This document shows, one piece after another, positions 17,328-31,759 of a stretch of DNA of 38,250 nt; position 1 is the stretch's first letter, and every line of letters begins with the position of its first letter. Origin of the DNA: Alphaproteobacteria bacterium (GTDB lineage: Bacteria > Pseudomonadota > Alphaproteobacteria > Bin95); assembly GCA_022827685.1 (NCBI GenBank), contig JAJEIH010000063.1, forward strand, positions 1 to 38,250. Direction: 5' to 3'. The notes beneath the pieces are model-generated. The model worked only from the letters and a program-made list of their open reading frames with translations. It was not told the origin of the DNA and made no database searches. The position numbers and the translations under genes were made by a program.

Positions 17328-17954
17328 CTACCCCGCCGGGAGCGTCGCCGCACGGAAACGGTCCTTGGAGAGCGCCGCGTCCAGGGAACGCCTGATGACG
17401 GGCGGCGGCGCGTCCGGGGTAATCTTCAGCAGCACGAACGAAGCGCCGTTGGCTTCGCGCAGCAGCCGGCCGGCCTCTTCGATCCCGTCTGCCCCGGATA
17501 CCGAGCGGACCGCCGCGATTCCCGCCCCGGACGCCATCGCCGCGAGATCCACGCCCAGCGAGGTGTGGCTCTTCTGGTAGCCCGTCTCGCCGTAATGGCC
17601 GTTATCGACGCAAACGATCGAGAGATTGGGCGGGTTCAGGATCGCCACGGTGGCGAGCGAGCCCACATTCATCAGCAGCTCGCCATCGCCCGTCAGTACC
17701 AGCACCCTGCGGTCCGGCCGCGCAAGCGCAAGCCCGAGCCCCATGGCAACGGCCCCGCCCATGACGCCGGCGCAGGCGAAATAGTTGGCTTCGGGCTCGC
17801 ACATGGCGGCGGTGTCCTTCGCCGTGCCTGCGAGCCCGGCTACGATCAGCCAGTCCTGCGGATTGCCCACCAGCGCCGGCACGGCCTCGCGCCTGTCCAG
17901 CGTGCCGACGGGGCTCATCTCGGCCGCGGTGCCGGCCCGAAACGCTTCACTCAT
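17328..17954 (-). CDS. TPP-dependent decarboxylase, ComE / sulfopyruvate decarboxylase beta-like
   Basis: The 208-residue protein is a TPP enzyme pyrophosphate-binding half. The cofactor motif GDGELLMNVG is followed by LATVAILNPPNLSIVCVDNGHYGETG, closely resembling the beta subunit of sulfopyruvate decarboxylase (ComE) and the C-terminal half of phosphonopyruvate decarboxylase. It needs an alpha partner, which is the preceding gene, 17 nt upstream. Decarboxylation of a substituted pyruvate to the aldehyde is the likely reaction; whether the substituent is sulfonate, phosphonate or other is unknown. I chose ATG 17954 because it follows the partner's stop with normal spacing. It is the last gene of the operon and converges with the penicillin-binding protein gene. 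Confidence 0.82.
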   Translation of the reverse strand: MSEAFRAGTAAEMSPVGTLDRREAVPALVGNPQDWLIVAGLAGTAKDTAAMCEPEANYFACAGVMGGAVAMGLGLALARPDRRVLVLTGDGELLMNVGSLATVAILNPPNLSIVCVDNGHYGETGYQKSHTSLGVDLAAMASGAGIAAVRSVSGADGIEEAGRLLREANGASFVLLKITPDAPPPVIRRSLDAALSKDRFRAATLPAG

Positions 17955-17971
17955 CGCTTCCACTCCCCCGC

Positions 17972-18478
17972 CTAAAATGCCTTGGCGCCGATCAATTTCT
18001 GGGTCAGCAAAACACCGACCGCCTGCCCGGACCCGAAGACCATGGTGCAGGCCGCCCGCATCGCGCCCTCGACATCCTCGGGCCGGTCGATCCGCATGGT
18101 CACGAAGCCCATCGCCTCCATCACCGGCTCGACCGCCTGCCCCATCGGCATCTGCCAGGGATTGCCCTCGCCGAAGTCGCCGCGCATCGACACCAGCACC
18201 AGCATCGGGAACAGGCCGTTCTTCACCAGCGAGAACATGTTGACGCAATTGCCGATGCCGGAGGACTGCATGGCCGCAACGCCGCGCGCGCCGCCGAGAT
18301 GGGCGCCGGCAAGCATGGCGATGCCCTCTTCCTCCGTGGTGAGCGGCACGGAATGCATCTCCGGGTCCGCCAGCGACTTGTCGATCAGCACCCTGTGGCC
18401 GGCGTCGGGCACATAGCTCACCTGGCTGACATCGAACTCCTTCAGGACCCGGTAAAGGTCCTCCTGCCAATCGGCCAT
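17972..18478 (-). CDS. TPP-binding subunit, ComD / sulfopyruvate decarboxylase alpha-like
   Basis: The 168-residue protein corresponds to the pyrimidine-binding half of a TPP decarboxylase. The TTEEEGIAMLAGAHLGG segment (about 47-63) contains the glutamate that activates the TPP aminopyrimidine, and SGIGNCVNMFSLVKNGLFPML is family-typical. Separate alpha and beta polypeptides of about 170 and 200 residues are the arrangement of archaeal ComD/ComE sulfopyruvate decarboxylase. The beta partner is the next gene. I chose ATG 18478, which leaves a 28-nt gap after the E1 beta stop; an upstream in-frame ATG at 18580 would overlap E1 beta. Confidence 0.82.
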   Translation of the reverse strand: MADWQEDLYRVLKEFDVSQVSYVPDAGHRVLIDKSLADPEMHSVPLTTEEEGIAMLAGAHLGGARGVAAMQSSGIGNCVNMFSLVKNGLFPMLVLVSMRGDFGEGNPWQMPMGQAVEPVMEAMGFVTMRIDRPEDVEGAMRAACTMVFGSGQAVGVLLTQKLIGAKAF

Positions 18479-18506
18479 CGTTTCCTGTCCTCTCCGGGAG
18501 AAGGGC

Positions 18507-19475
18507 CTATAGCTGCGCGCGGACCGCCGCCGCAATGGCGTCCGGGCCCACGCGCAGCATGTCTTCGAGCGGCTTTGCATAGGGAATCGGGATGCGCGGC
18601 GCGCCGAGCCGCTTCACCGGCGCTTTCAGGCTGCCGAAATGCGCCTCCGAGACGGTCGCGGCGACCTCGGCTCCGAAGCCGCCCACCGAGACGGCCTCCT
18701 GCGCCACGACCAGCCGCCCGGTCTTCTGGACGGACGCCAGCACCGCGCCGCGGTCCCAGGGCCAGAGCGTGCGCAGGTCGATGACCTCCACCGACACGCC
18801 CTCCTCCGCCAGCATTTCCGCCGCAGCGGCGGCATTGCGGACCATGGCGGACCATGAGACCACGGTTGCATCGTTGCCGTCCCGGACGGTCCGCGCGCTG
18901 CCGAACTCGCCCGGCGGTTCGTCCTCGCCGAGCTCCTCCTCGATCCCCCACAGGTCCTTGTGTTCCATATAGACGACCGGATCGTCGCTGCGGATCGCCG
19001 CTTTGAGCAGCCGCAGATTGTCTCCCGGCGTTGCCGGGGCGACCACCGTCAGGCCGGGAATATGCACATACCAGGCCTCCAGCGACTGCGAGTGCTGCGC
19101 GGCGGAGGAGCGCCACATGCCCATCGGCTCGCGCACCACCAGCGGCACGCCGCCCTGCCCGCCGAACATGTAGCGGGCCTTGGCCGCCTGGTTCACCAGC
19201 TCGTCCACGGCGCAGAGCGCGAAATCGGCGAAGCGCATCTCCACCACCGGGCGCGTGCCCGCCAGCGCCGCGCCGACGGCGGAGCCGAGGATCGCCGCCT
19301 CGGAAATCGGGGCATCCGAAATCCTGAGCGGCCCGAACTCCTCGACCATGCCCGCATACTGCCCGAACACGCCGCCGCGCCCGAGGTCCTCGCCGACGGC
19401 CCACACGGTCGGGTCGCGGCGCATTTCCTCGGCCAGCGCCCGCCGTCCGGCCTCCATGTAGGTGGTCGTCACCAT
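18507..19475 (-). CDS. 2-oxoacid dehydrogenase E1 beta subunit
   Basis: The 322-residue protein is a transketolase-type E1 beta subunit of the pyruvate/branched-chain/acetoin dehydrogenase family. Recognisable parts are YMEAGRRALAEEMRRDPTVW, GEDLGRGGVFGQYAG, the segment RISDAPISEAAILGSAVGAAL, and the C-terminal VIDLRTLWPWDRGAVL followed by VAQEAVSVGGFGAEVAA. It forms an alpha2beta2 heterotetramer with the preceding gene and shares TPP-binding and catalytic residues with it. The two genes overlap by 7 nt (19469-19475), so they are translated together. Unusually, no lipoyl E2 or E3 gene follows. Substrate range cannot be read from sequence. Confidence 0.92.
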   Translation of the reverse strand: MVTTTYMEAGRRALAEEMRRDPTVWAVGEDLGRGGVFGQYAGMVEEFGPLRISDAPISEAAILGSAVGAALAGTRPVVEMRFADFALCAVDELVNQAAKARYMFGGQGGVPLVVREPMGMWRSSAAQHSQSLEAWYVHIPGLTVVAPATPGDNLRLLKAAIRSDDPVVYMEHKDLWGIEEELGEDEPPGEFGSARTVRDGNDATVVSWSAMVRNAAAAAEMLAEEGVSVEVIDLRTLWPWDRGAVLASVQKTGRLVVAQEAVSVGGFGAEVAATVSEAHFGSLKAPVKRLGAPRIPIPYAKPLEDMLRVGPDAIAAAVRAQL

Positions 19476-20473
19476 CGGAACGCCGCCTCGCGCGGGTCGC
19501 CGACATCCTGGACATCCGCGTAGAGCGCGCGGTCTTCCGGCCAGTCCGCAGCCTTCGCCTCTTCATAGGCGGCCCGCATCTCCTGAACAGCCGCTTCACG
19601 GTGGCCCGAAAGCGTTTCCCCGGCGACGCCATGCGCGCGCAGCGTGTCGGCGGCGCGGGCTATCGGATCGTCCTTCCAGCGCTCCTCCACTTCTCCGGCA
19701 TCGCGGTAGGCGGCCTTGTCCACGGCCGTGTGGCCGGTCAGCCGCCAGGTCTTCGCCCAGAGGAACTGCGGGCCGCCGCCGTCGAGGATTCGCTCGCGCA
19801 GTTCGGTCGTCACCTCCGCCACAACGTCCACATCGTTGCCGTCAACGGCCCGGGCGGGAATGCCCAGCGCCTCGGCGCGCGCCGCCGGGCCGGGGCCGCC
19901 GGTCATCGCCTCGGTCCGCGTGGTGGCGGCGAAGGCGTTGTCCTCGCAGACGAACAGCACCGGCAGGTCGAAGACCCGCGCCCAGTTCAGCCCTTCCAGG
20001 AACGGCCCGCGATTGACCGCGCCGTCGCCGAAGATGCAGCAGACGATGCGCCGCTCGCCCTTGAGCCGCACCGCGTGGGCCGCGCCGGCGGCGATGTTGA
20101 TGTTGGCGCCGACGACCCCGTTCGCGCCCAGCATCCCGACCGAGAAGTCGGCGATGTGCATGGAGCCGCCCTTGCCGCCGCAATTGCCGCCTTCGCGCCC
20201 GAACAGCTCGCGCATCATCGCAACCGCGGAAGCGCCCTTCTCCAGCGTGTGGCCGTGGCCGCGATGGGTGGACAGCAGCAGGTCCTCGCGCGCGAGGCTG
20301 CCGACCGCGCCCACCGCGCAGGCCTCCTGCCCGATGGAGGGGTGGATGGCGCCCAGCACCAGCCCTTCCTCCAGCGCGGCGACGGCCTGTTCCTCGAAGG
20401 CTCGGATGCGGTGCATCCGCCGGTGCCGGTCCGCCAGCCTTTCGAGGTCGAGATTGGGCCGGGGACCGCTCAT
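19469..20473 (-). CDS. 2-oxoacid dehydrogenase E1 alpha subunit
   Basis: The 334-residue protein is an E1 alpha subunit of the pyruvate/acetoin dehydrogenase group. RIRAFEEQAV, the STHRGHGHTLEKG loop, and the TPP motif GDGAVNRGPFLEGLN are present, followed by NAFAATTRTEAMTGG. It decarboxylates a 2-oxoacid with TPP and would pass the acyl group to a lipoyl E2, not encoded nearby. It heads the operon E1 alpha, E1 beta, ComD-like, ComE-like. The ATG at 20473 is followed upstream by a purine-rich GGGGGG stretch on the coding strand. Three TGTCATG repeats lie 22-49 nt upstream and could be a regulator site. Confidence 0.92.
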   Translation of the reverse strand: MSGPRPNLDLERLADRHRRMHRIRAFEEQAVAALEEGLVLGAIHPSIGQEACAVGAVGSLAREDLLLSTHRGHGHTLEKGASAVAMMRELFGREGGNCGGKGGSMHIADFSVGMLGANGVVGANINIAAGAAHAVRLKGERRIVCCIFGDGAVNRGPFLEGLNWARVFDLPVLFVCEDNAFAATTRTEAMTGGPGPAARAEALGIPARAVDGNDVDVVAEVTTELRERILDGGGPQFLWAKTWRLTGHTAVDKAAYRDAGEVEERWKDDPIARAADTLRAHGVAGETLSGHREAAVQEMRAAYEEAKAADWPEDRALYADVQDVGDPREAAFRW

Positions 20474-20494
20474 GGCCGGCCGCCCCCCCGGGAA

Positions 20495-20522
20495 ATGTCA
20501 TGAAATGTCATGTTTTGTCATG
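20495..20522. promoter_or_regulatory. Three TGTCATG repeats phased at 10 bp (putative operator)
   Basis: TGTCATG occurs at 20496-20502, 20506-20512 and 20516-20522, exactly one helical turn apart, 22-49 nt upstream of the E1 alpha start codon. The 20-nt unit ATGTCATGAAATGTCATGTT (20495-20514) is repeated exactly at 20680-20699. Same-face phased direct repeats near a start are typical of binding sites for a transcription factor that binds cooperatively. The regulator is not known and none is encoded in this window. Confidence 0.55.
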
Positions 20523-20679
20523 GGGCCGGTCTCCGCCCCGCTCGTTTGCAAGGCATTGCAGCCTCCTTGTCGGTCTGCGGTCCCGGACGCCCCGTTGCCG
20601 GAGGAACGCTCCTCCCGCGCGCATAATGCGAGCCCGGCTGCGCGTGCGCGAGGCGGCGGGGCCGTCCCCTCCACCGTGG

Positions 20680-20699
20680 ATGTCATGAAATGTCATGTT
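20680..20699. promoter_or_regulatory. Second copy of the TGTCATG double repeat
   Basis: This 20-nt segment is identical to 20495-20514 and contains TGTCATG at 20681-20687 and 20691-20697, again 10 bp apart. It lies 185 nt further upstream of the same operon. Two distant sites of the same phase suggest an upstream auxiliary operator, possibly for looping or repression. Confidence 0.5.
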
Positions 20700-21334: not shown

Positions 21335-22516
21335 TCAAAGGCCCAGCACCCGCTTCGCGATGATGTTGCGCTGGATCTCGTTGGAGCCGGCGAAGATCGT
21401 GTGCTTGCGGTCGTTGAAATATTTCGCCGCGAGCGCGTTGGCGTAGTCGGGGCCGACCGGCTCCTCGTTCCAGCCATGCTCCATGGCCTCGATCTGGTAG
21501 GGACCCGCGTCGTAGCCCGCCGCCTCCATCTTGAGCTCGGAGAGGCGCTGCTGGATCTCGGTCCGGCGGATCTTGATCATCGACGATTCGGCGCCGATCT
21601 CCTTGTCGGCCGAGACGGCGGCGAGCATGCGGAGCATCTGCATCTCCAGCGTCTGGAGCTCGATCTCGACCTCCGCCACCTTGCGCATGAAGGTCGCATC
21701 GTCCTCCAGCCCCTGGTCCGCCGCAATCTCCTTGAGCGAGCGCAGGCCGTTCTTCTGGCTGCCGAGCGCGCCGCCGCCCATGCGCTCGTGGCCCAGCAGG
21801 TATTTGGCGATCGTCCAGCCCTGGTCCACCTCGCCCACGAGGTTCCCGCGCGGCACGACGACGTCGGTGAAGAACACCTCGTTGACCTCGTGCAGGCCAT
21901 CGATGGTGATGAGTGGCTTCACCTCGATGCCGGGCGTGGCCATGTCGATCAGGATGAAGGAAATGCCCTCCTGCCGCTTGCCGGCGCTGGAGGTGCGCAC
22001 GAGGCAGAAAATCCAGTTCGCCCAGTGCGCGGCCGTCGTCCAGATCTTCTGGCCGTTGATGACGAAGCGGTCGTCATGCACCTCGCAGCGCGTCTTCAGC
22101 GCGGCGAGGTCGGAGCCGGCGCCGGGCTCGGAATAGCCCTGGCAGTAGATGCGCTCGCCGGAGAGGATGCGCGGCAGGTTGTCCCGCTTCTGCTCCTCGG
22201 TGCCGAAGGCCATCAGCACCGGCCCGCACATGGAAAGGCCGAAGGGGATCGGGCGCGGCGCATTGGCGAGCGCCTGCTCCTCGTCCCAGATGTATTTCTG
22301 CGTCACCGTCCAGCCGGGCCCGCCCCATTCGGTGGGCCAATTCGGCGCGACCCAGCCCTTGTCGTAAAGCGCCCTGTGCCACGCCATCACCTCGTCCAGC
22401 GTCGGCTGGATGCCGAGCCCGACCTTGCGCGCCACGTCGCCCGGCAGCGTCTCGGCCAGGAAGGAACGACACTCGTCGCGAAAGGCTTCGTCTTCAGGGG
22501 CGAAATTGAGGTCCAT
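21335..22516 (-). CDS. Acyl-CoA dehydrogenase
   Basis: The 393-residue FAD enzyme has the family signatures YSEPGAGSDLAAL (about residues 131-143, substrate and flavin binding), the middle domain FVINGQKIWTTAAHWANWIF, and the C-terminal FAGSNEIQRNIIAKRVLGL. It would oxidise an acyl-CoA to the enoyl-CoA in the cytoplasm, passing electrons to ETF. The length and the WPTEWGGPGWT segment fit the FadE group often seen with steroid or branched-acid degradation genes. It follows the YbhN-like gene by 90 nt on the same strand and may belong to the CoA operon at 22607-27271 or have its own promoter. Confidence 0.93.
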   Translation of the reverse strand: MDLNFAPEDEAFRDECRSFLAETLPGDVARKVGLGIQPTLDEVMAWHRALYDKGWVAPNWPTEWGGPGWTVTQKYIWDEEQALANAPRPIPFGLSMCGPVLMAFGTEEQKRDNLPRILSGERIYCQGYSEPGAGSDLAALKTRCEVHDDRFVINGQKIWTTAAHWANWIFCLVRTSSAGKRQEGISFILIDMATPGIEVKPLITIDGLHEVNEVFFTDVVVPRGNLVGEVDQGWTIAKYLLGHERMGGGALGSQKNGLRSLKEIAADQGLEDDATFMRKVAEVEIELQTLEMQMLRMLAAVSADKEIGAESSMIKIRRTEIQQRLSELKMEAAGYDAGPYQIEAMEHGWNEEPVGPDYANALAAKYFNDRKHTIFAGSNEIQRNIIAKRVLGL

Positions 22517-22606: not shown

Positions 22607-23551
22607 CTACTCCTCCTTTCGGGAGAAGCGGCCGCGGGAGGCTTCGTAGGCGCCGAAGAGGGCGAGCGCGAGGGCCAGCGGCAGGAGGAAGTAGATGACC
22701 CGGTAGGTGATGATGCCCGCGGCCACGACATGGGTCGGGACGGTCTCGGGCATCAGCACCAGCAGCACCGTCTCGAACACGCCGAGGCCGCCCGGCACAT
22801 GGCTGATGTAGCCGGCCATGTAGGCCAGCACATAGACGGCGACGAAATGCCAGTAGGACATGCCGAAATCCGGCGGCAGCACCAGGTAGAGCACGGCGCT
22901 GGTGAACGCCCATTCGAGAATGCCGACGCAGAACTGGATGAGGCCGTGGCGGATCTTCGGCGGCGTCACCTCGCGCTCGCCGACGCGCACGACCGGCCTG
23001 CCGCAGAGGCACCACAGGACATAAAGCGCACCGGACAGCACCCAGACGGCCGCAACGGTGCGGATGAGGCCGGTGTCGAGCTCCAGCGCATCGGCCAGTA
23101 CCGCCGCGTTGGGAAGCGTCAGCAGGCCGCCCACGGAGAGTGCACAGAGGTAATAGACGATGCCGGCATAAAGGACGACGCGGGCGACATCGCCGGGGGG
23201 AACGTCCCAGTCCGTGTAGAAGCGGAAGCGGACCGCGCCGCCGGTGAGCGCGCCGAAGCCGAGATTGTGGCTGAAGGCGTAGGAGATGGAGGAGACGAAC
23301 GCGACCCGGCCGAAGGACATGCGCCGCCCGATATAGCGGAAGGCCGTGTGGTCGTAGGCCGCCAGCACCAGATAGGCCGCGAAGGTCGCGGCCACGGCCG
23401 CCAGGATTCGCAGCAGCGGGATCGCTTCAAGCTGGCGGCCGAGTTCGTCCCAGCGCAGGTCGCGCAGCTGCCAGGTCAGCGCCCAGACGGCGGCGGCGAA
23501 GACGGCGACCGCGGCGACAATGCCGAAATAATGCCAGAAGCGTTTCGGCAC
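22607..23551 (-). CDS. YbhN/UPF0104 family integral membrane protein (flippase-like)
   Basis: The 314-residue protein has about eight hydrophobic segments and belongs to the lysylphosphatidylglycerol synthase transmembrane-region family. Its conserved core includes ISYAFSHNLGFGALTGGAVRFR (from about residue 88) and the signature SHVPGGLGVFETVLL near 248-262. Members of this family are proposed lipid or sugar-lipid flippases of the inner membrane, without the soluble aminoacyl-transferase domain of MprF. It starts 7 nt after the DUF35 gene, so it is cotranscribed with CoA-metabolism genes, which is an odd place for a flippase. The actual substrate is unknown. Confidence 0.85.
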   Translation of the reverse strand: MPKRFWHYFGIVAAVAVFAAAVWALTWQLRDLRWDELGRQLEAIPLLRILAAVAATFAAYLVLAAYDHTAFRYIGRRMSFGRVAFVSSISYAFSHNLGFGALTGGAVRFRFYTDWDVPPGDVARVVLYAGIVYYLCALSVGGLLTLPNAAVLADALELDTGLIRTVAAVWVLSGALYVLWCLCGRPVVRVGEREVTPPKIRHGLIQFCVGILEWAFTSAVLYLVLPPDFGMSYWHFVAVYVLAYMAGYISHVPGGLGVFETVLLVLMPETVPTHVVAAGIITYRVIYFLLPLALALALFGAYEASRGRFSRKEE

Positions 23552-23558
23552 CGCGGGT

Positions 23559-23966
23559 TCAGCCCGCCGGGCGGAACTTCGGGATTGTCAGGTCTTCGGA
23601 AACCCTGTCGAAGAACGCCTCGACCCGCTGGCCGATATGGACCGCCTCAATGTCGTCGGTCATGAGGTTGCTTACGATGCGCGCGCCCTCGTCCAGTTCG
23701 ACGCAGGCAACGACATAGGGCGTCTCGTCCCGGAAGGCCGGCCCGGCCGGCGCATGGCAGACGGTGAAGGAATAGACCACCCCGGTTCCCTTCGCCTCGA
23801 TCCACCGGATATCGGTCCCGTCCACGCCCGGCGCAAGGCGGCGGGAATAGAGGAAGCAGCGGCCGGTCCTGCCGCAGCGCTGGATCATCAGGCGGCCTTC
23901 GCGCGCGCCGGTCCAGTAAGGCTCCGATTCGGCGTCGATGGCGGGGACCGGCTTGTCGTAGGTCAT
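23559..23966 (-). CDS. DUF35 OB-fold protein with degenerate zinc ribbon
   Basis: The 135-residue protein matches the DUF35 family that partners thiolase-like enzymes: an N-terminal helix (PYWTGAREGRLMIQRC), a rubredoxin-like zinc ribbon, then an OB-fold. The ribbon should have two CxxC pairs. Here only C31 is kept; the positions of the other three ligands appear to be T34, A45 and V48 (RCGRTGRC and RRLAPGVDG), so zinc binding is probably lost. The OB-fold part (GTGVVYSFTVCHAP, PYVVACVEL) is intact. It begins 9 nt after the thiolase-like gene, its presumed partner. Confidence 0.83.
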   Translation of the reverse strand: MTYDKPVPAIDAESEPYWTGAREGRLMIQRCGRTGRCFLYSRRLAPGVDGTDIRWIEAKGTGVVYSFTVCHAPAGPAFRDETPYVVACVELDEGARIVSNLMTDDIEAVHIGQRVEAFFDRVSEDLTIPKFRPAG

Positions 23967-23975
23967 GGGCCGACT

Positions 23976-25154
23976 CTAGCCGTTTTCCGTCGAGAGGATG
24001 AGCGTCGCGCCCGAAGACAGCACGCCGCCGGTGCCGTGGCATATCGCCGTGCGCACGCCTTCCACCTGCCTCTCGCCCGCAAGGCCCCAGAGCTGGCGGC
24101 ATGCCTCGATGATGGTGAACAGCCCGTACATGCCGGGATGGCAATAGGAGAGCCCGCCGCCATTGGTGTTGACCGGAAAGGCGCCGCCGGGGGCGGTCCG
24201 ACCGCCCCTGACGAACTCCTTGCCCTCGCCGTAGCCGCAAAGGCCGAGCGCCTCCAGCGTCATCAGCACGGTGATGGTGAAGCTGTCATAAAGCATGGCG
24301 AGGTCGATTTCGGCCGGGCAGCGTCCCGCCATGGCGTAGGCCCGGCGCGAGGACTGCTCGGCGACCTCGAGTTTCGCCATGTCCGGCATGTGCGCAATGC
24401 TCGCATGCGAGGCGGAGGCGCCGTGCCCCAGCACATGGACCGGCGGGGTGCGCAGGTCGCGCGCGCGCTCCTCGGTGGTCATCACCACGGCGCCGCCGCC
24501 GTCGGTGACCAGGCAGCAGTCGTAGCGCCCGAGCGGCGAGGCGATCATGCGCGCGCCCAGCACATCGTCGACCGTCATGGGCTCGCGGAATGCGGCGGCA
24601 GGGTTGAGCGCGGCCCAGGCGCGGGTCGCCGCGGCGATTTCGGCAAGCGTCTCGCGGGTCGAGCCATAGACATGGGCGTGGCGCTGCGCCGCCATCGCAT
24701 AGGCGCCGACCGGGAGCGGCAGCCCGGCCGGAATGTCCCACTGGTTCGAGAACATCGCCGGGCGCCCGCCCAGCGCCCGCGCCGCCTGGCTCTTCTGGAG
24801 CGAGCCGTAAACGATCAGCACCGTTTCCGCCTGACCGGAGCGGATCGCCTCGGCCGCCCGCCCTGCATGGAGCACGAAGGCTGCGCCGCCGACATTGGTG
24901 CCGTCGAGATAGCGCGGCCATTCGAGCCCCAGATATTCCGTCAGCAACACCGGCTGCATGGCGCCCGGCCCCGGCATGCCCCACATGCCGGCGACGGCGA
25001 GGCCGTCCACGTCGCGCATGGTCAGCCCTGCCTGGCTGAGCGCTTCGCCCGCCGCGTCTCGCTGTATCGAGAGCACCGTCGCGCCCGGCAGCGCGCGGCC
25101 CCGTTCACGGGTCGGCGCGTCGGCGACGCCGACGATGACCGGGCTCCGGCTCAT
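23976..25154 (-). CDS. Thiolase-like protein (SCP-x/Ltp type) lacking the nucleophilic cysteine
   Basis: The 392-residue protein has the thiolase fold: N-terminal VIVGVADAPTRERGR, the C-terminal GGGLSYCHPGMYG (HPG in place of GHPxGATG) and AICHGTGGVLSSG. Where thiolases carry the acyl-accepting cysteine (CASG), residues 87-93 read NVGGAAF, so the nucleophile is absent. A DUF35 gene follows directly. In steroid side-chain degradation, thiolase-like Ltp2 acts as an aldolase with a DUF35 partner, so carbon-carbon cleavage by a retro-aldol route is plausible. The start overlaps the stop of the CoA ligase gene (ATGA). Confidence 0.85.
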   Translation of the reverse strand: MSRSPVIVGVADAPTRERGRALPGATVLSIQRDAAGEALSQAGLTMRDVDGLAVAGMWGMPGPGAMQPVLLTEYLGLEWPRYLDGTNVGGAAFVLHAGRAAEAIRSGQAETVLIVYGSLQKSQAARALGGRPAMFSNQWDIPAGLPLPVGAYAMAAQRHAHVYGSTRETLAEIAAATRAWAALNPAAAFREPMTVDDVLGARMIASPLGRYDCCLVTDGGGAVVMTTEERARDLRTPPVHVLGHGASASHASIAHMPDMAKLEVAEQSSRRAYAMAGRCPAEIDLAMLYDSFTITVLMTLEALGLCGYGEGKEFVRGGRTAPGGAFPVNTNGGGLSYCHPGMYGLFTIIEACRQLWGLAGERQVEGVRTAICHGTGGVLSSGATLILSTENG

Positions 25155-27271
25155 GCGTCGGCGTTCTCCCGGACGGCGATGAGCGCGTCCACGGCGACGG
25201 CGCCCTCCCCTCTCGGCAGCACGATGAACGGATTGACGTCGATCGTCTCAAGCACATCGGCATTGGCGGCGGCGAAGACCGAGAGCCTGGCCAGCGCGTC
25301 GGCCAGCGCGTCTTCATCCGAGGGCGGCGCGCCGCGCACCCCCTGAAGCATCGGGTAGCCGCGCACCTCGCGGACCATCCGGCGCGCCTCGTCGATGCCG
25401 AACGGCGCGATGCGGAAGGTCACGTCTTTCAGGACCTCGACGAAAATGCCGCCGAGGCCGAACATGACCACCGGGCCGAACACCGGGTCGCGGACGACGC
25501 CGAGAATGGTCTCGACGCCGCCGGAGACCATGGGCGCGACCAGCACGCCGTCGATCCGCGCGTCCGGCGCATGCGCTTCAGCGCACGCAAGCAGGTCGCG
25601 GCAGGCCGTCTCCGCCGCCTCCCGCGATGCGACATTGAGGATGACGCCGCCGATCTCGGACTTGTGGAGGATGTCCGGCGACACGATCTTCATGACGACC
25701 GGGAAGCCCGCCGCCTCAGCCGCCTCGGCGGCTTCCGACGGCGAACCCGCAATCCGCTCCGGGACGGCCGGCACGCCGGCGGCCGCCAGAATGCGCTTGC
25801 CTTCGACCTCGTTGACGGCCGTTCCGGCGCTGAGCCTCGGCGCATCGGGCGGCAGGTCCGGAGGCGGCGCGGACGGCCCCCGCTTCAACGCCTCGGAATA
25901 CCGCGCCAGAACCCCGAGCGCGTGGATCGCCCGGCTCGGGTCCTCGTAGCAGACATAACCCATCTCCTGGATCCTCGCGCGGCGCTCGGGCGTGGTCAGG
26001 ATGGCGAGCATGTGCAACTGGTCGGGGAAGCGCTGCCTTACCGCCTCCAGGCTCGGCTCCAGCTCCTTCATCATCAGCGGGTTCAGGCCGACCCCCGCCA
26101 GGAAGCAGACCGCGCTGGCATAGTCGCCCTCTTCCAGCAGGGCGCCGTACATGGTTTCCATCAGGGTCGCGTCGTTGATGAACTGCGCGGTCACATCCAG
26201 CGGGTTGCGGGTGCCGGCAAAGGGCACCAGCGCCTTCATCCGCTCCTGCGTCGCCTCGGGCAGCGGCGGGAGCTCGAGGCCGGCGTCCTCCGCCGCATCG
26301 GCCATGATGACGCCGACCCCGCCGGAAACCGTGATGATGCCTGTCCTGGCGCTCTTCGGCAGCTGGCCCCCGGCGAAGGCATAGCCGACGTCGAACATCT
26401 CGTCGATGCTGTGGGGCCGAAAGACGTTGTACTGGCGCAGAAGCGCATCGAAAACGGCGTCGGAGCCCGTGAGCGACGCCGTATGGGAGGCCGCGGCGGC
26501 AGTGCCGACTTCGGACCGCCCGACCTTCATCAGCACGACCGGCTTCTCGGCGGCGCGGGCGATTTCGAGCGCCTCGACCAGCTTGTCGGCGTCCTGCACG
26601 CCTTCCATGTAGCCGAGCACGACGCTGGTGCCGGGATCCTGCGCCATATAGGCAAGGCAGTCCGAGAACTCGACATCGCACTGGTTGCCCATTGTGGCCC
26701 AGAGGTTCAGGCCGAGGCCCCGTTCGCGGGCGAGCGTGAAGCAATGGCCACCGAAAGCGCCCGACTGCGCGGCGACGGAAATCGTGCCCCTTTCGGGCCC
26801 CGTATCGCCGATGGCCGAGATGAAGGTGGCGATCATGCCGGTGCCGGTGTTCATCACGCCCATGCAATTGGGGCCCATGATGCGGAGCCCGCCCTCGGCG
26901 CCGAGATCGGCCAGGCGGCGCTGGACGCGCGCGCCGTCCTCGGAAATCTCGGCGAAACCGGAGGACAGCACGATGGCGGCCTTCACGCCCTTGTCGATGC
27001 AGGCCGTCAGCGCCGGTTCCACGAAGGGCATCGGCACGACGATTACCGCCATGTCCACCGGCCCCGGAATGTCGCCGACAGCGGGGAAAGCCGGCAGGCC
27101 CTGGATCTCGGCGGCGCCCGGATTGACCGGATATACCCTGCCGCCATAGCCGGAGATCTTCATGTTGTGGACGGGCCGGCCGCCAATCTTGGCGAAGTTC
27201 GACGACGCGCCGACAATCGCCACCGACCCTGGATTGAAGAACGCGTCGAGCGTGTCGATGCGGATGGTCAT
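25151..27271 (-). CDS. ADP-forming acyl-CoA synthetase (acetate-CoA ligase family)
   Basis: The 706-residue protein is a fused alpha-beta ADP-forming CoA ligase. It has an N-terminal CoA-binding Rossmann domain (SVAIVGASSNFAKIGG, residues 16-31), succinyl-CoA-synthetase-like domains with the conserved AAASHTASLTGSD near residue 262, and a C-terminal ATP-grasp domain (GFPVVMKIVSPDILHKSEIGG, from about residue 525). It couples an acyl-CoA to acid conversion with ATP or ADP. It heads the operon ligase, thiolase-like, DUF35, YbhN-like, and lies 92 nt after the acetolactate-synthase-like gene. The physiological acid is unknown; members can also act in protein acetylation. Confidence 0.9.
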   Translation of the reverse strand: MTIRIDTLDAFFNPGSVAIVGASSNFAKIGGRPVHNMKISGYGGRVYPVNPGAAEIQGLPAFPAVGDIPGPVDMAVIVVPMPFVEPALTACIDKGVKAAIVLSSGFAEISEDGARVQRRLADLGAEGGLRIMGPNCMGVMNTGTGMIATFISAIGDTGPERGTISVAAQSGAFGGHCFTLARERGLGLNLWATMGNQCDVEFSDCLAYMAQDPGTSVVLGYMEGVQDADKLVEALEIARAAEKPVVLMKVGRSEVGTAAAASHTASLTGSDAVFDALLRQYNVFRPHSIDEMFDVGYAFAGGQLPKSARTGIITVSGGVGVIMADAAEDAGLELPPLPEATQERMKALVPFAGTRNPLDVTAQFINDATLMETMYGALLEEGDYASAVCFLAGVGLNPLMMKELEPSLEAVRQRFPDQLHMLAILTTPERRARIQEMGYVCYEDPSRAIHALGVLARYSEALKRGPSAPPPDLPPDAPRLSAGTAVNEVEGKRILAAAGVPAVPERIAGSPSEAAEAAEAAGFPVVMKIVSPDILHKSEIGGVILNVASREAAETACRDLLACAEAHAPDARIDGVLVAPMVSGGVETILGVVRDPVFGPVVMFGLGGIFVEVLKDVTFRIAPFGIDEARRMVREVRGYPMLQGVRGAPPSDEDALADALARLSVFAAANADVLETIDVNPFIVLPRGEGAVAVDALIAVRENADA

Positions 27272-27363: not shown

Positions 27364-29010
27364 TCAGACCCGGTAGGACTGGGACGACCCGGTGAACGGG
27401 GAGATGTCGCGCTCGTCGAGCTCGAGGTGGATCAGCGCCGGTCCCGGATGCGCAAGCGCGGCGGCAAGGGCGCCGGCGAATTCGCCGGTCTCCCGCACGC
27501 GGCTCGCATGGAGGCCGTAGGCGCGGCCGACCGCCTCGAAATCCGGGCTTTCCAGCCTCGTGCCGAAGATGCCGTCCTCGCCGTAGCGCGTCTGCTGCGA
27601 CGTGAGGATCGAGCCCCAGGCGTTGTTGTCGCAGACGACGATCTTCACCGGCAGGCGCTCCTGCACCAGGGTCACGGCCTCCTGCCCCGTCATCAGGAAT
27701 CCGCCGTCGCCGACAAAGACCACGACCGGCGAACGGGGCCGCGCGAGCGCCGCGCCGATGCCGCCCGGCACGCCGTAACCCATGGCGCCGGCCATCGGCC
27801 CCGCCTGGGTGCGCGGATCGCCGAACCGGAAATAGCGATGCACCCAGCGCGCAAAGGTGCCGCTGTCGGTGATGACAACCGCATCGGGCGGCAGCTGCCG
27901 GCGCGCCTCGGCAGTCACTTCCGCCAGATCGACACTGCCATGGACGGGAACACCGCCCGGTTTTGAAAATTCCCGGAAATCCCTGTTCAGGCCCGCCCGC
28001 CATTCCCGGCGCGCCGGACCGCCATTCGAAACGGCGGCGGTCAGCGCCTCCAGCGCGGGGCCGGCATCGGCCCGGATGGCTGCTCCGGACGGCCAGCGGC
28101 CCAGGACTTCGGCATCGGGATGGATGTGGATCAGCGTCTGGTCTTCCCGGATCATCGAGAAGTCGCGGGTCGTGATGCCGTCCAGCCGCGCTCCGGCGGC
28201 AATCACGAGGTCCGCCTCTTCCCAGGCCCGTTCCTGGAAGTCGTCCCTGTTGATCTCCAGATGCCCGATATAGGCGGGGTGGTGGTTGGATATCGCATCC
28301 TGACATCGATAGGCGGTCGTGACGGCCGCGCCGCTCGCTTCGGCGAATTCGGCCAGCGGACCCTCCGCGCCCTCGAAGGAAATCAATTCACCTGCGACGA
28401 CGACCGGTCTTTCCGCGGCGTCGATCCGGCGCGCGGCCCCGGCAATCGCTTCGGGATCGGGACGCAGCGGCGCGCGCGGCGCCGGCGCCGGAATTGCCGG
28501 CAAGCCCGCATCGCCGTCGGAAATGTCCTTCGGCATCACGAGCACGACCGGCCCCGGCCGCCCCGCCATGGCGAGTTCGAGCGCACGGGCCGCTTGCGCC
28601 GGCACATCCGCCGCCGCTTCAGGTTCAAGCACTGCCTTCGCAATGCCCGAGAACATATTGTGGTAATCGATTTCCTGGAAGGCTTCGCGGCCCTTGGAGG
28701 CCGTCGGCACATCGCCGATGACCAACAGCATGGGCACCGAGTCCTGCCGCGCGACATGCAGCCCGATAGAGGCATTGGTCGAGCCCGGCCCCCGGCTGAC
28801 GAGGCCGACCGCCGGCTTGCCGGCAATTCTGCCGTATGCCGCGCAGGCGAAGGTGACGCCGGACTCATGCCGGGGCGTGACCAGGCGGATGGCGTTCGCC
28901 CGCCGCTGCAGCCCGGCAAGGACGGGAAGGTAGCTTTCGCCCGGAACGGCAAATGCCGCTTCCACGCCCCATGCCGCCAGCGTTTCCGCGAGCGCTTCTC
29001 CGCCGTCCAT
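27364..29010 (-). CDS. TPP-dependent acetolactate synthase-like enzyme
   Basis: The 548-residue protein has the three-domain layout of acetolactate synthase, benzoylformate decarboxylase and related enzymes. TPP-activating E49 lies in PRHESGVTFACAAYGR, the middle domain contains RPVVVAGE, and the C-terminal domain has the TPP-Mg motif GDGGFLMTGQEAVTLVQE with DNNAWGS. It joins or decarboxylates a 2-oxoacid. I chose ATG 29010 because it overlaps the DUF4170 stop (TGATG) and starts at the usual family N-terminus. No regulatory small subunit (IlvN) is nearby, so branched-chain biosynthesis is unlikely. The substrate is not evident. Confidence 0.87.
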   Translation of the reverse strand: MDGGEALAETLAAWGVEAAFAVPGESYLPVLAGLQRRANAIRLVTPRHESGVTFACAAYGRIAGKPAVGLVSRGPGSTNASIGLHVARQDSVPMLLVIGDVPTASKGREAFQEIDYHNMFSGIAKAVLEPEAAADVPAQAARALELAMAGRPGPVVLVMPKDISDGDAGLPAIPAPAPRAPLRPDPEAIAGAARRIDAAERPVVVAGELISFEGAEGPLAEFAEASGAAVTTAYRCQDAISNHHPAYIGHLEINRDDFQERAWEEADLVIAAGARLDGITTRDFSMIREDQTLIHIHPDAEVLGRWPSGAAIRADAGPALEALTAAVSNGGPARREWRAGLNRDFREFSKPGGVPVHGSVDLAEVTAEARRQLPPDAVVITDSGTFARWVHRYFRFGDPRTQAGPMAGAMGYGVPGGIGAALARPRSPVVVFVGDGGFLMTGQEAVTLVQERLPVKIVVCDNNAWGSILTSQQTRYGEDGIFGTRLESPDFEAVGRAYGLHASRVRETGEFAGALAAALAHPGPALIHLELDERDISPFTGSSQSYRV

Positions 29011-29252
29011 CAGCAATGTCCTTCCGCATGTTGGTGGTTGTCGGGGTCCAGCAGGCGGTGCAGATGCACGACGTAGTAGCGCATATGCGCATCGTCCACC
29101 GTGCCTTGCGCCTTGCCGCGCCACGCTTTGGCGGCCTCGGCGTAATTCGGGTAGATGCCGACGATATCCAGGGCCTTGAGGTCTGCGAATTCGGTTCCGT
29201 CGGGGTGCACGAGGCGCCCGCCGAAAACGAGGTGGAGGAGTTGCTGGGCCAT
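29010..29252 (-). CDS. DUF4170 family protein
   Basis: The 80-residue protein shows the DUF4170 pattern: LHLVFGGRL, DIVGIYPNYAEAAKAWRGKAQ, and the conserved AHMRYYVVHLHRLLDPD near the C-terminus. The family is found mainly in alphaproteobacteria and has no known function; it is small and soluble, without signal peptide or membrane helix. The start (ATG 29252) lies at the family N-terminus. Its stop overlaps the start of the TPP enzyme gene, so the two are probably translated together. It is divergent from the ABC transporter operon, 161 nt away. Confidence 0.85.
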   Translation of the reverse strand: MAQQLLHLVFGGRLVHPDGTEFADLKALDIVGIYPNYAEAAKAWRGKAQGTVDDAHMRYYVVHLHRLLDPDNHQHAEGHC

Positions 29253-29413
29253 TCCGTGAACTCCTTCGTTTGAGGGTTGCGGACCCCGGGCGAATAGCAG
29301 CAAGCGCAGCAAGGCGAAACCCCGCCGGGCGGTCGAAAATCCCAAGCCCCCTATCGAGTGCCGCTCCGTTTGTGTTAGCGTTCGGGCGACAGTTGCTGGC
29401 AATCGGGGACATC

Positions 29414-30508
29414 GTGCCGGACCAGGACCGCGCATTCGTCGTGTTTGACGGCGTTCAGAAGAGCTACGACGGCGAAACGCTTGTCGTGAAGAACCTGAAT
29501 CTCGAAATCGCGCGCGGCGAGTTCCTGACGATGCTCGGCCCTTCGGGTTCCGGCAAGACCACCTGCCTGATGATGCTGGCAGGGTTCGAGGTGGCCACGC
29601 ATGGCCAGATCAACCTTGGCGGCCGCCCGATCAACAATATTCCCCCGCACAAGCGCGGCATCGGGATGGTGTTCCAGAACTACGCGCTCTTCCCGCACAT
29701 GACGGTTGCGGAGAACCTGGCGTTCCCGCTGCAGGTGCGCCGGATGAGCCGCGCCGAGGTCGACGGGAAGGTGCAGCGCGCACTGGACATGGTCCAGATG
29801 GGCGGCACCGAGTTCGCGGGGCGCCGGCCGGCCCAGCTTTCCGGCGGCCAGCAGCAGCGCGTGGCGCTGGCGCGCGCCCTGGTGTTCGAGCCCGACCTCG
29901 TGCTGATGGACGAACCGCTGGGAGCGCTCGACAAGCAGTTGCGCGAACATATGCAGTACGAGATCAAGCATCTGCACGAGCGGCTGGGGGTCACCGTCGT
30001 CTATGTGACGCACGACCAGTCCGAAGCCCTGACGATGTCCGACCGGATCGCGGTCTTCAACGACGGCGTGATCCAGCAGCTCGCGACCCCGGAAGACCTC
30101 TATGAGAGGCCCGAAAACGCTTTCGTGGCGCAGTTCATCGGCGAGAACAACAAGCTCGACGGCATGGTAACGGCGTTTGCGGACAAGGAAGCGCGCGTCC
30201 ATCTGGACGGGGCGGAGGAGATCGGCGCACTGGCGGTCAATTGCCGGGGTGTCGGTTTCCCGACGATGTTGTCGATCCGGCCCGAACGCGTACTGATCGC
30301 CGAACCCTCGGCGCCGAACCAGCTTCAGGGCAGGGTCGTCGAACTGATCTATCTGGGGGATCACATCCGCTGCCGGATGGAGGTCGCCGGGCGGGATGAC
30401 TTCATCGTCAAGATCCCGAATTCCGCCAAACATTCAATGCTGAGGGTGGGTGAAACAACCCCCATAGGATGGCTCACGAACGACTGTAGAGCGTTGGACG
30501 CGGCGTGA
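29414..30508 (+). CDS. Polyamine-type ABC transporter ATP-binding protein (PotA family)
   Basis: The 364-residue ATPase has Walker [10 protein letters not shown] (42-50), the Q-loop FQNY (87-90), signature LSGGQ (142-146), Walker B LVLMDE (162-167), and the H-loop histidine at 200, followed by a C-terminal TOBE domain (about 285-364). It drives import by the permeases of this operon. I chose GTG 29414, preceded by GGGGA at 29405-29409, because it gives the normal family N-terminus; there is no ATG in a plausible position. It is the first gene of ATPase, binding protein, two permeases and a small peptide. Spermidine or putrescine is a family guess only. Confidence 0.92.
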
Positions 30509-30589
30509 CCCGAAATACGGGGAAGCGCCGCTGTTTTCCCGTTGCGCCGCGCCTGAACTGAACGAGTGGTAAACAAGGGAGAACGCCAC

Positions 30590-31687
30590 ATGAGACTCAG
30601 AACATTCCTTGCAGCCGGCGCGGTCGCCTCCATGGCGATGGCCGGCGCGGCGCAGGCGGAGGACATGACCATCGTGTCCTGGGGCGGCGCCTATTCGGCA
30701 TCCCAGATGAACGCCTACCACAAGCCGTACATGGAAATGAATCCGGGCGTGAACATCATCAACGATGAAAGCGCGGCGGAAGCGGTCGCCAAGCTTCGCG
30801 CCATGGCCGAAGCCGGCAACACGACCTGGGACGTGGTCGATGTGGTCGCGTCGGACGCCATCCGGCTTTGCGACGAAGGCCTCGCGATGGAAGTCGACGT
30901 GGATTCGGTGCTGGCGGCGGCGCCCGACGGCACACCCGCATCCAAGGATTTCGGCGATTTTCTCGTAACGCCCTGCTTCATCCCGCAGATCGTTTATTCG
31001 ACCACCTTCGGCTACCGCACTGACATGGTCGGCGACACGCCGCCCAAGGATGTCTGCGCCGTGTTCGACCTGGAGAACTATCCGGGCAAGCGCAGCCTGG
31101 AGAAGCGCCCGATCAACAACATGGAATGGGCGCTGATGTGCGACGGCGTCGCCATGGAGGACATTTACGACCAGCTGGCGACCGAGGAAGGCCAGGCGCG
31201 CGCCTTCGCCAAGCTCGACACGATCAAGGACCAGGTCGTGTGGTGGTCGGCCGGCGCGGATACGCCGCAGCTTCTGGCGGACGGCGAGGTCGTGATCGGC
31301 TCGACCTATAACGGGCGCCTGTTCAAGCTCATCGAGGAGGACAAGCAGCCGGTCGCCATGCTGTGGGACGGCCAGGTGTTCGACCTCGACGGATGGATCG
31401 TCCCGGCGAACCTGAGCGACGAACGCAAGAAGCGCGCGCTGCACTATCTCAATTTCGCCACGGACACCCAGCGCCTTGCGGACCAGGCGAAATACATCTC
31501 CTACGGTCCGGCGCGCGCGTCTTCGGCGCCGTTGGTGGGCAAGCATGCAACGCTGGGCATCGACATGGCTCCGCACATGCCGAACGAGCCGAAAAACATG
31601 AGCAACACGCTGCTCTACAACTACGAGTTCTGGGCGGACTACCGCGACGACATCGACGCGAAGTTCCAGACCTGGCTCGCCAAGTAG
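30590..31687 (+). CDS. ABC transporter periplasmic solute-binding protein (PotD/PotF-like)
   Basis: The 365-residue protein has a Sec signal peptide (MRLRTFLAAG to AQA, cleavage near 24) and a mature part that begins EDMTIVSWGGAYS, typical of the spermidine/putrescine binding-protein family. It would capture the solute in the periplasm and deliver it to the permeases encoded downstream. The start ATG 30590 has a good ribosome-binding site (AAGGGAG at 30575-30581). Cysteines near the middle could form a disulfide. A strong hairpin lies 12 nt after the stop, which would favour higher levels of this protein than of the permeases. The true substrate could be polyamine, opine, amino acid derivative or similar. 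Confidence 0.92.
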   Translation: MRLRTFLAAGAVASMAMAGAAQAEDMTIVSWGGAYSASQMNAYHKPYMEMNPGVNIINDESAAEAVAKLRAMAEAGNTTWDVVDVVASDAIRLCDEGLAMEVDVDSVLAAAPDGTPASKDFGDFLVTPCFIPQIVYSTTFGYRTDMVGDTPPKDVCAVFDLENYPGKRSLEKRPINNMEWALMCDGVAMEDIYDQLATEEGQARAFAKLDTIKDQVVWWSAGADTPQLLADGEVVIGSTYNGRLFKLIEEDKQPVAMLWDGQVFDLDGWIVPANLSDERKKRALHYLNFATDTQRLADQAKYISYGPARASSAPLVGKHATLGIDMAPHMPNEPKNMSNTLLYNYEFWADYRDDIDAKFQTWLAK

Positions 31688-31699
31688 AGGCGTCCTGAA

Positions 31700-31721
31700 G
31701 GAGGGGCCCCCGGGCCCCTCC
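31700..31721 (+). terminator. Hairpin after the binding-protein gene (partial terminator)
   Basis: GGAGGGGCC and GGCCCCTCC form a stem of 9 bp or more, followed by ACTCTTTTC. A larger alternative pairs CCTGAAG (31694-31700) with CTTCAGG (31734-31740). Such a structure between a binding protein and its permeases usually reduces downstream transcription or protects the upstream mRNA, giving excess binding protein. Confidence 0.6.
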
Positions 31722-31759
31722 ACTCTTTTCGGGCTTCAGGAGAAGGCGCGCGGGGTCCA

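Follow-up and report, generated by a model that had tools for sequence, protein, structure and literature searches.

A predicted thiolase-fold retro-aldolase that lacks the thiolase nucleophile and is paired with a DUF35 protein short of zinc ligands

We analysed a 38,250-nucleotide stretch of DNA from Alphaproteobacteria bacterium (GenBank assembly GCA_022827685.1, contig JAJEIH010000063.1, positions 1 to 38,250; hereafter the window), which carries adjacent genes for a thiolase-like protein without the catalytic cysteine of thiolases and for a DUF35 protein with one of the four expected zinc-ligand cysteines. Thiolase-fold enzymes accompanied by DUF35 subunits form a conserved and so far uncharacterised clade to which the pair belongs, and comparison of sequences indicated that these enzymes are most likely retro-aldolases. 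Both open reading frames (ORFs) were confirmed on the minus strand at 23559-25154 of the window, and their products are referred to below as the query proteins.

23976..25154, minus strand: thiolase-fold protein of 392 amino acids (NCBIfam NF004811, PRK06158); key residues Gly90 (nucleophile position), Tyr289-Asp-Ser291-Phe, Gly334, Cys338-His339-Pro and Cys372
23559..23966, minus strand: DUF35/ChsH2-type partner of 135 amino acids; OB (oligonucleotide/oligosaccharide-binding) fold plus a degenerate zinc ribbon (C31, T34, A45, V48)

Missing nucleophile and invariant residues of the clade

The thiolase-like protein exceeded the cut-off of NCBIfam model NF004811 (454.9 versus 421 bits), and the closest solved chains by sequence were 4u4e (369 bits), the CtSal chain 9myr_A (196 bits; entry 9myr was identified as CtSal from its title and a YDCY motif) and the TcLtp2 chain 6ok1_A (148 bits). 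Comparisons with Foldseek and VIA-align against the PDB confirmed a thiolase fold for the AlphaFold model of this protein, which had a mean predicted local distance difference test score (pLDDT) of 88.2. In VIA-align, the model gave Z scores of 52.8 against 9myr_A (root mean square deviation 2.1; 378 residues aligned), 52.4 against 6esq_A (1.9; 376), 51.8 against 4u4e (1.8; 350) and 51.7 against 6ok1_C (2.4; 373), differences in Z below 1 being ties. Because these scores differ so little, the modelled fold by itself cannot tell aldolases from archaeal-type thiolases. The DUF35 protein exceeded the gathering cut-off of the OB fold model PF01796 (79.1 versus 27.1 bits), and its AlphaFold model (mean pLDDT 95.1, a score that zinc-bearing homologues in the alignment may have helped) had 9myr_B and 6ok1_B as its top PDB matches. 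By sequence and by predicted folds, the pair is homologous to both Ltp2-ChsH2 and Sal-Shy, and the kinship with Ltp2-ChsH2-type pairs that an initial annotation of this DNA had proposed was upheld.

The same annotation had read the segment NVGGAAF, residues 87 to 93, as standing in place of the CASG motif of thiolases. The motif is present and contains no Cys; the counterpart of the missing Cys is most likely Gly90 and not Asn87. Asn87 fell opposite the Cys of the thiolase 7yvy in a pairwise phmmer alignment, at the cost of a three-residue gap, whereas in the MAFFT multiple alignment the Cys column of 7yvy held Gly90. As residue 89 is the first of the predicted helix and CtSal carries Gly at the thiolase Cys position (PMC12329534), Gly90 was taken as the nucleophile position. 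The earlier statement that no acyl-enzyme can form by way of the usual Cys holds whichever alignment is used.

Relatives were drawn from two samples. Scanning GTDB yielded 415 confirmed stretches, and the 80 best were retained together with their organisms; YCHPGMYG was among the search patterns, so that counts of Cys338 are biased upward. For a pattern-free sample, a hidden Markov model (HMM) search was made of 299 Pseudomonadota genomes, 13 of which, the window's own included, had a match over the NF004811 cut-off; 30 loci were read, covering 13 of the 15 over-cut-off matches, one per genome. Position 90 was Gly, and never Cys, in every row read from either sample. Some clade members had Cys at position 91 (L002, one L078 copy, L102 and L104-L110), where the query has Ala. 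Five GTDB relatives with 92 to 96% identity (L011-L014 and L041) also lacked the nucleophile and kept the same lone ligand Cys in DUF35, with Ala and not the Val of the query at ligand 4. Because these five show the same features, the missing nucleophile and the ligand loss are, on this comparison, not the result of chance or sequencing error.

A tree was built from 118 rows (the truncated row L046 having been dropped beforehand) thinned at 85% identity to 68. It resolved a Sal clade of 2 rows (SH-aLRT, Shimodaira-Hasegawa-like approximate likelihood ratio test, 99), an Ltp2 clade of 4 rows (99), in which the C76 and C8 paralogues from the window's genome formed long branches, and a third clade (94), whose 61 rows included the query and 4u4e and covered Pseudomonadota, Bacillota, Chloroflexota and Actinomycetota. 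The tree was a quick build with a single long outgroup row, 7yvy. Gly90, Tyr289, Asp290, Phe292, Gly334 and His339 were each present in 61 of the 61 third-clade rows. Residue 291 was Ser in 35 rows and Ala in 26, and because of the latter it cannot, by sequence, be a required acid in this clade. Cys was found at position 338 in 39 of the 61 rows and at position 372 in 9. The position of His339 was occupied by Gln in the two Sal rows, by Tyr in the four Ltp2 rows and by His in 7yvy, in which it is the His of the thiolase HP motif. The third clade would accordingly be read, residue by residue, as having the base Tyr of Ltp2 and Sal, neither of the known acids, and the thiolase His where Ltp2 has its acid. 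As judged from these positions, it lies between true thiolases (Cys, His and His at 90, 289 and 339, as in 7yvy) and the steroid aldolases (Gly, Tyr, and Tyr or Gln). A reading of the pair as a single aberrant case is not supported, given the loss of the nucleophile in all 61 rows and the frequent, recurrent loss of zinc ligands described below.

The putative thiolase 4u4e of Sphaerobacter thermophilus, a solved structure with 54% identity to the query over 350 aligned residues, shares Gly at the nucleophile position, YDSF, Gly334 and His339; it differs in having Thr for Cys338 and branches with another subgroup (the paralogue L002 of the window's genome, L104 and L106). It was compared by its thiolase-like chain. 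The bile acid aldolase CtSal-CtShy (9myr) resembles the query pair in its thiolase fold, nucleophile-position Gly, YDxx catalytic Tyr and DUF35 subunit (CtShy), but belongs to a separate clade. CtSal requires Tyr302, the equivalent of Tyr289, and Cys304 (PMC12329534), and the Gln at its His339-equivalent position is inert. Cys304 corresponds to Ser291 in the query, and Gln347 and Gln352 correspond to Gly334 and His339; CtShy binds zinc through Cys3His1, whereas the query DUF35 has one Cys left. The steroid aldolase TcLtp2-ChsH2 (6ok1), also of a separate clade, likewise shares the thiolase fold, the Gly, a YDxF catalytic Tyr and a DUF35 subunit (ChsH2), but it has YDHF, the acid Tyr344 and a four-Cys zinc site where the query has YDSF, His339 and a degenerate ribbon. 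Catalysis by Ltp2 uses Tyr294 and Tyr344, according to the account given in PMC12329534. In the alignment with Ltp2 and ChsH2 that had been suggested as a check, the catalytic Tyr matched, but His339 is neither Tyr nor Gln, and residue 291 is Ser or Ala instead of His or Cys. The trypanosomal SCP2-thiolase-like protein TbSLP (5ab4-5ab7) has the same fold and no thiolase Cys, with the motif YDCF in contrast to YDSF; according to the same article, it is a proposed aldolase and has no associated DUF35. The archaeal thiolase/HMG-CoA (3-hydroxy-3-methylglutaryl coenzyme A) synthase/DUF35 complex 6esq shares the fold and a DUF35 partner. The thiolase 7yvy shares the fold and His at 339 but retains the nucleophilic Cys, and its motif is His-Asp-Ala-Phe where the query has Tyr-Asp-Ser-Phe.

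Sal and Ltp2, the characterised enzymes of this type considered here, are steroid aldolases. Thl of Mycolicibacterium neoaurum is reportedly another such aldolase. The clade described here is a large sister clade with an invariant residue pair of its own; NCBIfam labels it acetyl-CoA acetyltransferase, a reaction that is closed to it by the usual route. An activity measured for one member would test the path from thiolase to aldolase, and many gene annotations would be corrected with it.

Zinc ligands of the DUF35 partners

The ligand positions of the query DUF35 are C31, T34, A45 and V48, confirming that one of the four zinc cysteines is kept; C37 is an additional, non-ligand Cys. The protein fell under the cut-off of the zf-ChsH2 zinc ribbon model PF12172 (21.7 versus 23.2 bits). 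The Ltp2-like pair in the same genome served as a control: its DUF35 passed both PF01796 and PF12172 (35.1 bits for the latter). The query DUF35 is thus most likely, by its ribbon sequence, without zinc at the usual site. The window's genome holds five thiolase-like/DUF35 pairs, namely C157 (the query), C161 (L002), C132 (L003), C76 (L004) and C8 (L005); the thiolase-like protein of C76 is Ltp2-like (263 bits to 6ok1_A) and its DUF35 partner has an intact four-Cys site.

Partners were known for 66 tree rows, of which 45 had four Cys or Cys3His1, with the CtSal and TcLtp2 rows assigned from PMC12329534, and 21 were zinc-less. The thiolase tree demanded at least 7 changes of zinc-ligand state, and a single zinc-less group was rejected (approximately unbiased test, p = 1.6e-51; 21 rows against 47, with two unlabelled rows among the 47). 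Trees of DUF35 itself required 11 changes with the ribbon columns removed, in a poorly resolved tree whose starred branches alone force 2, and 6 at full length. Swapping of a single zinc-less DUF35 lineage between thiolases was considered and was not supported, the ribbon-removed DUF35 tree grouping zinc-less partners largely as the thiolase tree does. In the pattern-free sample, partners at the over-cut-off loci (L091-L103; n = 13) had four Cys in 4 cases and lacked them in 9.

Partners were also read by pair type within the GTDB family of the window (genomes G000 and G299-G311). They were zinc-less in 14/14 C132-type, 10/10 C161-type, 12/12 C8-type and 9/9 readable query-type rows. Four-Cys partners were found in 11/11 Ltp2-like (C76) and 11/12 4u4e-like rows of the same family, and genome-wide avoidance of zinc was therefore rejected as the cause of loss. 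Eight further family rows outside these types comprised 4 with four Cys, 3 zinc-less and 1 (L158) with a partly captured ribbon. The query-type gene of G299, a genome of the same genus, was left out of the count; in this locus (L237) the thiolase-like gene and the DUF35 gene each read as two fragments, reflecting either a decaying gene or an assembly error. Outside the family, relatives of the C161 and C132 types had four-Cys partners in G320, G315, L104-L110 and L111-L117 but not in G322. These results indicated that, among the sequences compared, loss of zinc ligands is recurrent and common in the clade. In the open-licence literature searched, no title on ligand loss from zinc ribbons dealt with DUF35.

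Replacements were counted in 71 zinc-less rows, 21 from the tree and 50 from the family, with four partners from the window's genome in both sets. Ligand 2 was Thr in 44 rows and Ser in 19 (63/71 in all), and ligand 4 was Thr in 41 and Ser in 11. Ser was found at ligand 3 in 30 rows, and Cys was retained there in 15 and at ligand 1 in 42. A Gly followed ligand 2 in 68/71 zinc-less rows versus 35/74 zinc-bearing rows (template included). In the remaining ribbon columns of the zinc-less rows, the combined share of Ser and Thr was at most 0.21, except in columns 28 (0.35) and 29 (0.28). The zinc-less rows are not independent; counted by nine lineages, which were defined after the trees had been inspected, a row with Ser or Thr occurred at ligand 2 in 8 and at ligand 4 in 7, the query clade (V, V, K, A) being one of the two exceptions at ligand 4. 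Because the lost ligands mostly become Thr or Ser, this pattern suggests selection for a metal-free turn rather than decay of the ribbon. The DUF35 partners thus offer natural versions of one subunit with and without zinc, sometimes within one genome, and since these exist, the role of zinc in such complexes is directly testable.

Predicted reaction and alternatives

By analogy with the solved aldolase complexes, we consider it moderately probable that the thiolase-fold protein is a lyase without the nucleophile, assisted by a zinc-free DUF35 subunit, and that the pair catalyses retro-aldol cleavage of a 3-hydroxyacyl-coenzyme A (CoA), releasing a shortened acyl-CoA together with an aldehyde or ketone. 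The two proteins would form a complex in which, as in CtSal, the 3-hydroxyl would lie beside the Gly90 amide and pass its proton to Tyr289. Deprotonation would be followed by breakage of the C2-C3 bond, and the resulting enolate thioester would be held by the C-terminal HGTGG loop, in which Gly377 is the counterpart of CtSal Gly391, and be protonated by His339. The DUF35 subunit would brace the substrate cleft with no need for zinc, its ribbon having become a metal-free turn. We favour Tyr289 and His339 as the catalytic pair, a third putative arrangement beside those of Ltp2 and Sal. The earlier suggestion of an aldolase with an altered partner is borne out in so far as the protein is aldolase-like and keeps the catalytic Tyr, but the enzyme is neither an Ltp2 nor a Sal. 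More tentatively, the PRK06158 clade as a whole may represent a third class of thiolase-fold aldolases with a Tyr/His pair, found in at least four phyla, acting on non-steroid substrates and with partners that repeatedly became metal-free through Thr or Ser.

The gene pair is conserved. In 75 of the 80 GTDB loci, a DUF35 gene lay no more than 1 kb away on the same strand, and three more had one in the same locus (L038 and L083, where the stop-to-stop ORFs overlap, and L078, where a second thiolase-like gene lies between); the two loci without one, L024 and L046, stop at a contig end. DUF35 lay downstream of the thiolase-like gene in 64 loci and upstream in 14. Within 6 kb on the same strand, a homologue of the ADP-forming ligase occurred in 41/80 loci and an acyl-CoA dehydrogenase in 48/80. 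A MaoC/FAS1-type hydratase was present within this distance in 34 of 99 stretches, a set made up of the 80 GTDB loci, a further 18 longer stretches and the window and including some short contigs; the hydratase models were built from clusters found in the same loci, and Pfam confirmed a representative from each of the five clusters. The known steroid aldolases act directly after a MaoC/FAS1-type hydratase step, as stated in PMC12329534. The gene clusters differ among the nearest relatives of the query, their 73% relatives and the rest, and hence no substrate is claimed from gene context. In 49 tree rows, a hydratase neighbour was found for 1/18 zinc-less and 11/31 zinc-bearing partners; with 4 independent pairs the sign test gave a median p of 1, and a link between zinc loss and the lack of a hydratase neighbour is no more than a lead.

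Several observations weigh against a retro-aldolase. The query has Ser291 at the position where the CtSal C304S mutant was inactive (PMC12329534), and this would be harmless only if His339 took over the acid role. His339 is itself the HP-motif His of thiolases, as in 7yvy, so that keeping it is no specific sign of an aldolase, and the ordinary archaeal-type thiolase 6esq_A ties with the aldolases in the fold comparison. Support for the third-clade branch came from a quick tree with one long outgroup row (SH-aLRT 94). A search of open-licence PubMed Central (PMC) literature turned up neither a characterised representative of the third clade nor a reported activity for any of its members. The hydratase argument is borrowed from relatives, since the search for MaoC/FAS1 hydratases came up empty both in the window and in the 6 kb of same-strand sequence around 16 query-clade loci (L011-L024, L041 and L046), several of them on short contigs; L017 and L018 have a hydratase farther away than 6 kb.

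It is unlikely that the protein is instead a decarboxylase or a C-C bond-forming enzyme, whose cleft would make an acyl-CoA enolate, starting from a malonyl-type CoA or through deprotonation, and then protonate it or add it to an acceptor. The nucleophile-less relative TbSLP slowly decarboxylates malonyl-CoA, but CtSal showed no such activity (both from PMC12329534). A thiolase-type His339 fits enolate chemistry of either kind, and neither the thiamine pyrophosphate (TPP) enzyme nor the ADP-forming ligase in the cluster sets a direction by itself; the neighbours in relatives, with the dehydrogenase, ligase and hydratase frequencies given above, nevertheless look catabolic. Tyr289 in place of the 7yvy His matches the aldolases, a weak argument since TbSLP also has Tyr.

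A catalytically silent acyl-CoA-binding scaffold, kept for complex formation, is rather improbable. PhlA is an inactive thiolase-superfamily subunit in a DUF35 complex (PMC2954200), and the nucleophile of the query is likewise gone, but six residues invariant in 61/61 rows over four phyla would be needless for a pure scaffold, and no second thiolase-like gene was seen beside the query gene in the window. Equally doubtful is continued binding of zinc by the DUF35 protein, with C31 and C37 joined by residues from the thiolase-like subunit or from another part of DUF35. The ligand set can shift, as in CtShy with Cys3His1 (PMC12329534), and C31 and C37 are both present in the query. However, C37 is missing in the 73 to 74% relatives L015-L017, the ribbons of L019-L023 in the same clade are free of Cys, and query ligands 3 and 4 are Ala and Val; the DUF35 fold was, moreover, predicted with a mean pLDDT of 95.1, to which zinc-bearing homologues perhaps contributed.

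A thiolase or acyltransferase using Cys338, Cys372 or Cys213/214 as its nucleophile is very improbable: Cys338 adjoins His339, Cys213 and Cys214 are almost invariant, Cys372 occupies what we take to be the position of the second catalytic Cys of classical thiolases and some clade members have Cys91, but the query has Ala91, Cys338 occurs in only 39/61 rows (a count inflated by the YCHPGMYG pattern) and Cys372 in 9/61, and position 90 is always Gly.

Gene layout and other features of the window

The query genes lie in a minus-strand cluster with the following neighbours.

27364..29412, minus strand: TPP-dependent acetolactate-synthase-like enzyme, upstream in the cluster
25151..27271, minus strand: ADP-forming acyl-CoA ligase (CoA-binding, ligase and ATP-grasp domains)
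22607..23551, minus strand: MprF-flippase-like membrane protein without synthase domain, 7 bp downstream of the DUF35 gene
21335..22516, minus strand: acyl-CoA dehydrogenase (top NCBIfam model PimC large subunit, under the model cut-off)

The order on this strand is TPP enzyme, ADP-forming ligase, thiolase-like protein, DUF35, flippase-like protein and acyl-CoA dehydrogenase. The start of the thiolase-like gene overlaps the ligase stop by 4 bp and a gap of 9 bp separates it from DUF35; given these spacings and the 7 bp that follow DUF35, the genes from the ligase through the flippase-like gene look like a single operon. The neighbouring ligase and dehydrogenase point to acyl-CoA catabolism. 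An MprF-type flippase domain protein lacking the synthase half is thus spaced as a member of an acyl-CoA operon. The first ~134 residues of the TPP enzyme ORF match no Pfam domain, and its true start is for this reason probably near 29010-29020. A small DUF4170 protein (PF13773, 74 bits; 29010-29435, minus strand) stands at the head of the cluster and overlaps the TPP enzyme when that ORF is read at full length.

On the minus strand, the pair is flanked by TPP-dependent enzymes of three different kinds (17328-20473 and 27364-29412): an E1 alpha/beta dehydrogenase pair, a split sulfopyruvate-decarboxylase-like pair and the acetolactate-synthase-like enzyme. Repeated ATGTCATG-like words, with ATGTCATGAAATGTCATG present twice, were observed at 20494-20699, upstream of the E1 alpha gene (start at 20473), and are possibly an operator. 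Divergent from the cluster, ATP-binding cassette (ABC) transporter genes for an ATPase with a TOBE domain, a solute-binding protein and a permease occupy 29270-33028 of the plus strand; the transporter is presumably of the polyamine type. At 1542-2933 on the minus strand, a protein with a twin-arginine-like start, as judged by eye, had vanadium-haloperoxidase/PAP2-type domains barely over the Pfam cut-offs.

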